From NCBI RefSeq assembly GCF_002234675.1, contig NC_019873.2, positions 7,279,158 to 7,343,157 on the forward strand: a stretch of DNA of 64,000 bases. The letters are read 5' to 3'. This document shows positions 48,301 through 53,976 of the stretch, in pieces (the first letter of the stretch is position 1; each line of letters opens with the position of its first letter). The stretch is from Oryzias latipes. Lineage: Eukaryota; Chordata; Actinopteri; Beloniformes; Adrianichthyidae. The notes under the pieces were generated by a model. That model was not told the DNA's origin, made no database searches, and worked only from the letters and a program-made list of their open reading frames with translations. A program made the translations under genes and the position numbers.

Positions 48301-50306
48301 TTAAAAAGCTCCATGAACTTTTATCAAGTAAATAAAACACAGCATGTATGTTTTTAAATCGTCAGTAATCCCTGGTAAGCAGCATGAGATTGTGTTGCAG
48401 GAAGCAAAGTTGTTCTGTATTTTCCAACGAAACGACTTCTCCTGGGCTTGTAAATTGCAGAGACCTCGCTAAATATGCATTTTCTCCAAACATGTGAGAA
48501 TGGTGAACAAAGACACTTTCTTTCAGGGCTGTAGTTATACTCACGCCCAGAGCAAATGAGGTGCTTGTGCTGTGTTTTTTTTTTTTTTTTTTTTGCGAGA
48601 CAATGCCGGAGACAGCGCAGTATGACTGCATCTGAGCCAGAATAACCAGCTGACAATCAGACCGTCAGATGCCAATATTTGTCAAAATAACAGACACCTG
48701 CACCGTCGACCCCTGGTGTAAACCTTTAATAAGCTCACTCCTGCATTGGCGAGAGTGGTTGCCATAGAAACAATGACTCAGACCAATCCCTGCTTGCTGC
48801 CGTCATCTGATTCCAACATGGCAACGTCTGTATCGCGAAACAATAACTGAATTGACTTAATTTGGGGCACGGCATAATCGCTCGGTCCAGTTCTCATATG
48901 CAGTCAATAATTAAACTAGAAGAGGTTTCATTTCTCTTGTGTGATGGCATTCACACATACACAACACAAACCTCAAATCTAACACCTGTCAAGATGGGAC
49001 CTCCTCTTTTAACCCTCTTCTCTACAGTTTACAGACAAGCCAACAACATCAACATGCTGAAGGACGGCATGAAGATTGAAGCCACGCATGTGAAGAAGAA
49101 GCAGCTCCACCAGTATCTGCCTCCTGAGCTGGTCCAGAGGAAGAAAAGGGTTAGACGGGTTTTTCTTCTCTTTCTTCGTCTCTGTGCCGTTTTTCCAAAC
49201 CTCTCTGGTTTCCTGCAGAGCATAGCAGAGGTGAACCGTGGCTCCAACGGTGGAAACCCGAAGCGCTTGTCTTTGGACAACAGTCACCTGGACAGCTCCA
49301 GAGACACAGACTCAGGGACTCCCTTCAGTTCTCCAACCAGCAAGGCCCTCAAACCTCCATCAGATCCAGACGACGGGTAAGAGTTTGATATCACCTCTTT
49401 AAGTTTCCCAGTTGGGTGATGATGCCGTAACGCTGAGCCGTTTTTCTCTGCATGTTGCTGCGTCAGTCCCCCAAAGCAGCTGGTTGTGGAGAGCCCCCCC
49501 ACACCCAGCGCAGCCGCAGCTGCTGCTGGAGACCCAGGCATGTCATTGCCGGCTATCGGCTCAAGTGAGACGAAAACATTTGATTCAAAAAGAAAGGAAT
49601 GGACTTCGCAGGATAGTTGAGAAATGTGCAAACTCTCCTCCTCAGAGCCTCCTTCCAAGACGAAGCCTCCTTCTCCACCCGCCAGCGGCGCCATCAACAC
49701 AGTGCCGAGCGCGGACGTGAACCCCAGCGCCACCAGCAGCCCCAAAGAGGAGCCCAACGGCCTGGAGGAACCCGTCAACGGAGGCGCCACCAAGAGGCCG
49801 CACTCCCCCACACAAGAGGACCTGGCCAAAAAGCCCAGAAGCACAGATGTAAGAGAGGATTGTGGGAAATTTGGAATGGATCTCAGATGACTGACGTGGT
49901 GTTCTGCTGCAGGTTGTGTCCAGTGATGATGCTGCATTTAAAGAGCCATATCCACCATCCTCTGACTCCCATCCAGCCGGAGACGCACCGAGCACCGTGA
50001 GTGTTTCATGCCGGTTCTGTTAGCAGAAAGAAAAGCTTCCAGGATGACGCCTCTGTCCCCTCACAGCCTCCTCACTCTGGTTCCAAGGAAAAGCCCATTC
50101 CAACCATCGATACCTCAAGAACACAGGTGCGCCTGAACTCCAGCCCTCATCACTTTTCAGTTGTTTCGTGGTTAAACTCTGCATGTTTCGTATCTCAGAG
50201 ACTTCCCAGCATGGAGCTGCCAGACGCCTCGTCTCCTCTCCCCGCCAGCAACAGCTGTCGGGTCGTGAAAAACTCCATTAAGCTGGCGCTCAACCGCCAC
50301 AGGTGA
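33314..50306 (+). CDS. papolg: poly(A) polymerase gamma, conserved 743-aa form
   Basis: Nuclear canonical poly(A) polymerase. Exons: 33314-33330, 34009-34173, 37353-37419, 37527-37608, 38505-38614, 38699-38752, 39298-39409, 39490-39579, 39655-39793, 44603-44675, 45609-45729, 46446-46530, 47120-47173, 47244-47363, 47437-47546, 49028-49149, 49219-49376, 49467-49564, 49646-49848, 49913-49996, 50067-50126, 50199-50306. All have GT..AG and consistent phase. The start is a mini-exon encoding MKEMS, as in human PAPOLG. The nucleotidyltransferase triad is Asp113, Asp115 (GADIDALCV) and Asp167 ([12 protein letters not shown]). The central and RNA-binding domains follow ([40 protein letters not shown]), then a Ser/Pro-rich tail with KRPHSP and [10 protein letters not shown], ending [11 protein letters not shown]. 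The tail motifs favour gamma over alpha. See 50393-53976 for an alternative end. Confidence 0.95.
34174..37352. other. papolg intron 2, no internal gene seen
   Basis: A 3.2 kb intron holding the hAT-like element above; otherwise AT-rich without features I can name. Confidence 0.5.
35737..36200. mobile_element. hAT/SPIN-like MITE in papolg intron 2
   Basis: Begins cagtcgtccccgatccccgg then gccgccgaccggtaccag, the characteristic GGGCCGCxGACCGGTACC start of a widespread hAT non-autonomous family. The words aagcttttgagttt/aaccaggagtctttactcc are shared with 51390-51500. The right end is not clear. Confidence 0.55.
39940..43610. mobile_element. composite hAT (Charlie-like) element in papolg intron 9
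   Basis: Left end CAGGGGTGGGCAAACTACGG; right end with the inverted TTTGCCCACCTCTG. Flanks GGCCAGAC (39932-39939) and GGCTAGAC (43611-43618) form an 8-bp duplication with one mismatch. The interior carries a pogo-like fragment (about 40200-40305), an element with 'aatctgattttctgacca' and 'cgcttacatcacc' ends (about 40330-42900), and inside that the MITE at 40369-42128. No intact transposase frame. Confidence 0.7.
40369..42128. mobile_element. CCGTAATTTCCGG-family MITE, copy 2
   Basis: Left CCGTAATTTCCGGACCATAA and right ATAACCCGGAAACTACGG are inverted repeats. Subterminal blocks (cagcatggacctcacttttgg, gcacgtaatcgcc, gactcatgggaaatgg) recur in the opposite internal orientation in copy 3 at 52274-53298. 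Confidence 0.75.
43820..43853. repeat. GGAT/GGAC minisatellite patch
   Basis: A short tandem of gatggatgg/acggatgg units next to a hAT-like word (gcatgcgagctacttttga) near 43785. Confidence 0.7.
44139..44154. repeat. poly-G run
   Basis: A homopolymer of about 16 G on the plus strand; similar runs occur near 55711-55727 and 63718-63737. All are assembly-fragile. Confidence 0.85.
45820..46095 (+). mobile_element. dispersed 570-bp element, copy D, partial
   Basis: Contains gattccagctcagacgagga and aaagacgtacatggatcc, reading [25 protein letters not shown], and the 3' block gatttgaataaagaaatac. The 5' third, including the ATG, is missing. It lies in papolg intron 11. Confidence 0.65.
46667..46906. 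mobile_element. fold-back MITE with a 38-bp hairpin
   Basis: The arms ACCCCACTCCCAACGTTAAC and mirror GTTAACGTTGGGAGTGGGGT meet at GTTAAC, and the match continues through cttgtggggtccagatg/catctagacccacaag with one indel (46673-46750). The left terminus word gctgtcttgtgggg recurs inverted at about 46880-46900. Lies in papolg intron 12. Confidence 0.75.
47650..47950 (+). repeat. dispersed repeat shared with 62850-63075
   Basis: The words cccgtagacttctatagag, attgcaagtaattcaagttat and gtccaatcagatgcctgaa occur here and as reverse complement at 62850-63075. The family is not identified. Confidence 0.6.
47978..48717. mobile_element. MITE, TAGAGATCGACTGAT family
   Basis: Left end ctagagatcgactgatgaat; right end inverted, gcaccgtcgacccctgg. 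Ends of this type are common in fish repeats. The interior is AT-rich with a T-run at 48578-48594. Contained in papolg intron 15. Confidence 0.5.
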
Positions 50307-50392
50307 GCCGCGCCTTTTCTCCAATACATTTTGGCGACAGATGGGAGGGGGGGGGTTGTCCGATGTGTCATTGTCTATCTCAACACAAACAG

Positions 50393-53300: not shown

Positions 53301-53976
53301 AGCAAACATGGAGCTATAGCAGTCGGCAGTCTGTATATCCCATCAACGATATCCAGCTGATGCTGTCGTGGAAAAAAGCTGCAAAGCTGATATGAAGTTA
53401 TGTTAATCAATTGTAGGATTTACGTTAATCACATAAACGGATGACGAGTTCTGGTAAATCAAAGAGCGAGGACTGTTTTGGTGAAGGGTTAAACAAACTT
53501 TTGATGCATTTCCTGATTATTTTATTGTGAAAAAAACTGCTTTTCTCTTTAATTTTAATTTAAGAATTCGTCATTATAGTGTTTATAGTCCCCCTTAAAA
53601 ACGCTGTTAATTGTGAAAAGTTGTTTTATAAGCAGTTATGTCTAAAAAATGAACCACTGTACAAACCAAAAACAGATTTTAGAAAATCAAACCTCAAGAA
53701 TAAACAGATCCAAACAATACTCTTTATTTTTATATTTTTAAACCAACGTACTAAATGGAATTTTTTCCCCCCCTCATTTTTATGTCTGCTGCTGCTGCAG
53801 AACATGTTGCTCCCAAAAGCGTGGCGCCCCCCGTCGGCAGCTCCATCCCCACTTTAGTGAGTCGAGTCGTGGACCCCCTAAACGGGGCGGGATCAAAAAG
53901 ACCCCACTCACCCTCTCTGGAGGAGCAGGCCAAGCGGCTGAAGGAAACAGAGAAAGCCAGAATCCACATAGCTTGA
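50393..53976 (+). CDS. papolg: papolg downstream duplicated exons, alternative C-terminus
   Basis: Two further exons lie beyond the usual stop: 50393-50493 (phase 2 in, phase 1 out; ends EEKGMSIPVIGS) and 53801-53976 (KHVAPKSVAPP ... GSKRPHSPSLEEQAKRLKE, ending ARIHIA and TGA). They repeat exons 49467-49564 ([11 protein letters not shown]) and 49646-49848 ([17 protein letters not shown]) in the same order and with the same phases. The donor GTGAGC at 50303 would splice the preceding exon in frame (its last codon begins with AG) into this pair, giving an 827-aa protein. Seen directly: the splice sites, the frame and the duplication. Inferred: that the exons are transcribed as papolg. The alternative is a decayed relic. 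Confidence 0.65.
50670..50675 (+). terminator. candidate proximal poly(A) signal of papolg
   Basis: AATAAA 364 bases after the conserved stop codon and inside what would be the 50494-53800 intron of the longer form. Its use would yield the short form. Confidence 0.4.
51380..52140. mobile_element. hAT/SPIN-like MITE, reverse copy
   Basis: Ends accggtcggtggcctgaaaa then actggagaccagtg, the mirror of the start of the family at 35737. The words gagtctgaggaaccc and aaaccaggagtctta also match. Inside the intron between the two downstream papolg exons. Confidence 0.5.
52274..53298. mobile_element. CCGTAATTTCCGG-family MITE, copy 3
   Basis: Terminal inverted repeats CCGTAATTTCCGGGCTATAG and TTATAGTCCGGAAATTACGG, with TA on both sides (52272-52273, 53299-53300). 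The clearest copy of the family in the window. Confidence 0.85.

Follow-up and report, generated by a model that had tools for sequence, protein, structure and literature searches.

The papolg locus of Oryzias latipes

The DNA analyzed here is a stretch of 64,000 nucleotides of Oryzias latipes (assembly GCF_002234675.1, contig NC_019873.2, positions 7,279,158–7,343,157, + strand), termed the window below, and all coordinates are positions in it. Whole-genome searches covered the assembly of the same species, i.e., 734,051,031 bases in 25 contigs. The gene of concern was taken as papolg in the first-pass annotation, and this identity agrees with its best match among solved structures, PAP gamma (4lt6). 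For a single exon (49033–49149), the match to PAP gamma scored 53.8 bits vs 25.4 bits for PAP alpha. The exons matching residues 13–508 of human PAPOLG are collinear and start at 34031; residues 1–508 of the human sequence used here were confirmed against 4lt6, while the tail and stop position in it are provisional. Downstream of papolg, a Rel homology exon (RHD_DNA_bind match) was found at 59679–60149 (+), so that papolg and REL appear in synteny. In human, REL likewise follows PAPOLG.

The assembly was also searched for papola and papolb with the catalytic part of the fish protein, a provisional human PAPOLA sequence, and two Pfam families, and only the papolg locus was matched (3, 13, 11, and 3 matches among the best candidates scored), so that neither gene was detected among these candidates. 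This is a lead that papolg may be the sole gene of this genome for a canonical nuclear poly(A) polymerase. Elsewhere in the window, a 315-residue open frame at 8236–9180 (-) matched 7tm_1, the model of rhodopsin-family receptors, with an E-value of 9.9e-33. An open frame at 17861–18385 (+) matched Pfam ABC_trans_CmpB (E 6.5e-9) and may belong to a membrane protein gene as one of its exons.

All papolg features described below are on the + strand. The exon at 49024–49149 contains the end of the solved-structure part (phmmer match to residues 474–512 of 4lt6, E 2.4e-13) and, in a motif scan, an NLS1-like stretch. The splice and phase analysis then placed exon c (49219–49376, phase 2 out), the two exons that we term pair 1 (exon a, 49467–49564; exon b, 49646–49848), exon d (49913–49996, AFKEP), exon e (50067–50126, PIPTIDTSR, also matching the provisional human PAPOLG sequence), and exon f (50199–50302, phase 2 out). 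Behind exon f are located the two exons of pair 2, namely exon a (50393–50493) and, after an intron of 3307 bases, the terminal exon b (53801–53976). This intron harbors a repeat element (52272–53300, +) that starts and ends with TA and bears 34-base terminal inverted repeats with 79% complementarity. The first 149 bases of the element gave at least 41 matches in the genome, including itself, among the best 40 of 1043 candidate places scored. The translation of 42081–42368, in an upstream papolg intron, has a 10-residue stretch similar to VRSIARKLRY of the minus strand of the element, and this region is probably one end of a further member of the element family.

The two exon pairs are homologous to each other

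The coordinates of the four exons given in the first-pass annotation were exact, as AG/GT boundaries and open frames were found at all four. Pair 1 carries GMSLPAIGS (49537–49563) and KRPHSP (from 49792), and pair 2 carries GMSIPVIGS (50466–50492) and KRPHSP (from 53896) in the same order. Identical intron phases had also been claimed, and this holds for the first exons (2 in, 1 out) and for the entry of the second exons (1 in) in both pairs. The exits of the second exons differ: 49646–49848 leaves in phase 0 and is followed by another exon, and 53801–53976 terminates with a stop codon (TGA, 53974–53976).

In a joint local protein alignment, pair 1 and pair 2 scored 121, and the maximum of 1000 shuffles was 71 (0/1000 reaching the observed score). 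When aligned separately, none of 1000 shuffles was as good for the KRPHSP exons and two were for the GMS exons. In tblastn within the window, run without the low-complexity filter and without composition correction, the KRPHSP exons matched each other with E-values of 2e-7 and 4e-7 and the GMS exons with those of 0.008 and 0.002. With an E-value limit of 10, a whole-genome search with pair 2, in which four candidates were scored, recovered two places only, namely pair 2 itself and pair 1, the latter with an E-value of 0.0076 and 36% identity (71 residues aligned). At the DNA level, blastn of pair 1 against pair 2 gave no convincing match, and four comparisons of the introns and flanks of the pairs detected no similarity. 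The introns preceding the two GMS exons (49377–49466 and 50303–50392) are each exactly 90 bases long; we rejected a duplicated intron as the source of this equality, as 18 of the 80 inner bases are identical and 1638 of 2000 shuffles were as good. A search of viral and prokaryotic contig collections, neither of which contains fish, with the joined tail yielded 15 and 150 stretches fitting the pattern, respectively, and none was confirmed.

Both copies also share a pattern of the bipartite type, KR-x10-K[KR]x[KR], at 49792–49839 in pair 1 and at 53896–53943 in pair 2 (KRPHSPSLEEQAKRLK), with S-P between the basic halves. Shuffling the two copies produced the pattern in 3 and 9 of 20000 cases, and the only other match in six-frame translations (75,631 residues in open stretches of at least 25) was a lysine run. 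Pro, Ser, and Lys are abundant in both regions and the GMS exons align weakly by themselves, as might be expected if low-complexity Pro/Ser-rich exons resembled each other by chance. The joint alignment score, the rarity of the bipartite pattern in shuffled sequences, and the identical exon order and entry phases all argue against such a coincidence, which we regard as extremely unlikely. Altogether, the shuffle test, the genome search (pair 2 itself and pair 1 among four scored candidates), and synonymous positions near saturation (see below) support the earlier proposal of an old duplication within the gene.

Pair 2 had been regarded as the second, diverged copy. The two copies are indeed diverged, but the data do not clearly single out pair 2 as the one that changed more. 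The human exon, in its provisional sequence, aligned with 53801–53976 with a score of 91 and with 49646–49848 with a score of 62. Among the alignment columns, 14 were common to human and pair 2 only, 6 to human and pair 1 only, and 12 to the two pairs only. Despite the higher score, we did not adopt pair 2 as the ancestral-type copy, as the column counts (14 vs 6) do not differ significantly (p 0.12) and the human tail is provisional. These data are kept as a hint that pair 1, which occupies the ancestral position, changed more.

Pair 2 bears the signature of a coding sequence

The substitutions separating the two pairs are of the type expected from coding sequences. In the 37 codons of the motif blocks, the first, second, and third codon positions differ at 7, 10, and 26 sites, respectively, and this third-position excess (26 of 43 differences; binomial p 0.00024) is inflated as the blocks were picked because they align. 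Of the 20 residues shared in the blocks, 11 are encoded by different codons, and pS and pN are 0.77 and 0.26, respectively. In a wider comparison of 81 codons, the corresponding differences were 36, 36, and 51, with a dS of about 2.0 and a dN of 0.66. As the synonymous positions are near saturation and yet the motifs were kept, both pairs must have been under prolonged constraint. We also simulated neutral drift from pair 1, which served as a stand-in for the ancestor, at distances of 0.5, 1, and 2. The frame was kept in 456, 162, and 64 of 5000 runs, respectively, and the frame together with both motifs in none of 5000 runs at any of the three distances.

A codon-usage score, trained on 468 codons of the upstream papolg exons, gave 0.42 per codon for 50394–50492 and 0.13 for 53803–53973 in frame. 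Overlapping noncoding placements with an open frame matched these scores in 0 of 9618 and 7 of 9496 cases, respectively, though part of the control regions had also been used to train the background. The score is not a clean exon detector: the accepted exons scored 0.11 (49468–49563), -0.06 (exon d), and about 0 (exon e), and one reverse-strand frame of 53803–53973 scored 0.11 vs 0.13 in frame. The codon-usage test thus supports rather than proves that pair 2 is coding.

The selection on both copies suggested in the first-pass annotation is consistent with the open frames, the AG/GT sites, and the coding-type substitutions and codon usage in pair 2, and we consider pair 2 very probably coding. 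Alternatively, pair 2 may be what is left of a more extensive tandem duplication and may no longer be spliced in. Exon b of pair 2 has a stop where exon b of pair 1 has a donor, and a search of the window for additional copies of exons d, e, or f gave matches at the level of chance only. Nevertheless, a remnant is rather improbable given the retention of the frame and motifs at saturated synonymous divergence and the strong donor at 50302 described next.

The apparent stop codon behind exon f

Pair 2 had been described as lying downstream of the normal papolg stop, i.e., TGA at 50304–50306. The context is CAC AGG TGA GCC, and exon f ends at 50302 with the donor CAG/GTGAGC, so that the TGA arises only if reading passes this phase-2 donor (AG/GTGA) and enters the intron. 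An in-frame stop will be met whenever a phase-2 exon whose donor is GTGA or GTAA is read beyond its end. Exon c is a case of this kind, as reading onward from 49376 gives GGG TAA (49378–49380), though the gene continues there. Thus, TGA 50304–50306 is probably an artefact of reading past the donor, and the designation as the normal stop is not supported. More generally, the end of a coding region should not be deduced from an in-frame stop that immediately follows a phase-2 donor.

The splice sites were ranked with a hand-entered consensus matrix. The donor at 50302 ranked first of 447 GT sites (+ strand, 48800–57000) and that at 50493 ranked 13th; the acceptor at 53801 ranked 30th of 526. A point against splicing into pair 2 is the middling rank of the acceptor at 50393 (108/526), though that of the accepted exon starting at 49467 was weaker (140/526).

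Both human PAPOLG and PAPOLA are taken here to end exactly at LNR. The codon after LNR in this gene is CAC (His). Because of this codon, the ancestral stop, the place of which we take from the human end, seems to have been lost, and the simplest transcript would continue into pair 2.

Pair 2 may double an NLS2-type import module

The pattern KR-x10-K[KR]x[KR] occurs once each in the provisional sequences of human PAPOLG (KRSHSPSIDGTPKRLK) and PAPOLA (KRTSSPHKEESPKKTK). We regard the second NLS-like signal as a putative counterpart of PAP alpha NLS2. In mouse PAP alpha, NLS2 is bipartite, involves lysines 656–657, and lies beside a Ser/Thr region regulated by cyclin-dependent kinases, according to PMC10908868. 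The first-pass annotation anticipated a second basic patch in the region of nuclear localization and phosphorylation sites, and the bipartite pattern in pair 2 bears this out. Most likely, pair 2 doubles an NLS2-type import module that is predicted to be switchable by phosphorylation.

Proposed transcript and its alternatives

We propose that the main transcript joins 50302 to 50393 and 50493 to 53801, and assign a probability of roughly 0.6 to the whole explanation comprising the duplication, the stop loss, and the second NLS2-type signal. In this scenario, the exon pair of papolg would have been copied long ago, and the second pair would have come to sit behind the formerly last exon. With the ancestral stop lost and the strong phase-2 donor in use, the transcript would read on, and exon f (to 50302) would be joined to 50393–50493 and then to 53801–53976. 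The C-terminus would gain 91 residues (about 90 had been estimated) including a second GMS[IL]P[VA]IGS and a second bipartite NLS, and the former C-terminal segment would become internal. As the effect, we infer that the tail may promote import into the nucleus, or bind its partners, more strongly or in a separately switchable manner. The full exon chain is in frame. As a point against this transcript, there is no AATAAA or ATTAAA between the stop at 53976 and about 1.7 kb downstream; the first AATAAA past the stop (55831–55836) is a candidate distal poly(A) signal by pattern.

Six shortened chains were also tried, and two of them, exon c to 50393 and 49564 to 53801, keep the frame while four do not. 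These two chains would fit mutually exclusive tails, in which exon c (ending at 49376) or exon a of pair 1 (ending at 49564) is spliced straight to pair 2 to yield a shorter protein that lacks the former C-terminal segment. The enrichment of C- and N-terminal homologous substitutions among human tandem exon duplications, stated in PMC9741552, is in line with this option. On the other hand, the phase match follows equally from descent, and five exons would be skipped in either case; we therefore deem mutually exclusive tails quite unlikely.

Another alternative is a switch between two ends, in which cleavage near 50670 would lead to a protein ending in LNRHR and splicing at the donor to the 91-residue tail. 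An AATAAA at 50670–50675, in the intron behind exon a of pair 2 and 367 bases behind the donor at 50302, is preceded by a T-run and followed by GTGTG, which makes it a candidate proximal poly(A) signal by pattern. The short form, which is possible as judged from the pattern, would need cleavage soon after this AATAAA with the intron retained. Because the gene product is itself a poly(A) polymerase, and because a nearby poly(A) site would be restrained by U1 at the top-ranked donor, a feedback loop like that of CstF-77 is conceivable; an intronic poly(A) site of CstF-77 is under feedback and U1 regulation according to PMC3708835. However, AATAAA or ATTAAA occurs 15 times in the papolg intron, 50670 included, so that a single site means little, and the donor of the CstF-77 intron is weak whereas that of papolg is strong. 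The switch is thus an unlikely reading. In a broader version, the one gene of this fish for a canonical nuclear poly(A) polymerase would possess two NLS2 modules, and competition of U1-marked splicing with the proximal poly(A) site would set their use, whereby the enzyme would govern its own tail; this is a highly speculative long shot.

Returning to the transcript with the 91-residue tail, if it is made, a core enzyme of mRNA processing would have gained a C-terminal extension through the duplication of a regulatory exon pair and the loss of the old stop. The fish gene would then offer a natural test of the role of a second NLS2-type module.

Comparison with known systems

Among the open-licence papers listed on papolg in fish (zebrafish, medaka, and teleosts), no title or opening part of an abstract deals with the exon structure described here. 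Likewise, the provisional human tail peptide had no occurrence in the open-licence literature.

Mammalian PAPOLG (PAP gamma, neo-PAP) resembles the gene analyzed here in the catalytic part, the exon order, the tail motifs (provisional tail), and the Rel homology exon downstream. In contrast to medaka papolg, in which a second module follows, human PAPOLG is taken to terminate behind LNR and to carry a single GMS/NLS2 module. Mammalian PAPOLA, in its provisional sequence, shares the bipartite pattern (KR-x10-KKxK), the linker of which includes S-P, but possesses a single copy of NLS2, and its LNR end is taken as the C-terminus, unlike that of medaka papolg. The role of NLS2 is as described in PMC10908868.

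CstF-77 and papolg are both genes for 3′-end processing in which a donor is followed by a poly(A) site within the intron, a candidate one in papolg. According to PMC3708835, the CstF-77 site is conserved, tested, and accompanied by a weak donor, whereas the papolg site is a sequence pattern. For human tandem exon duplications with homologous substitution, 236 events are reported in PMC9741552; as in papolg, these duplications are in-phase, old, and often terminal. The human copies replace each other in that source, whereas the papolg copies most likely co-occur, the added pair following the exon that was once the last. Duplicating exons is in itself a familiar route, and the addition of a pair with its phase kept after the last exon of a core enzyme of 3′-end processing would be a variant of it.
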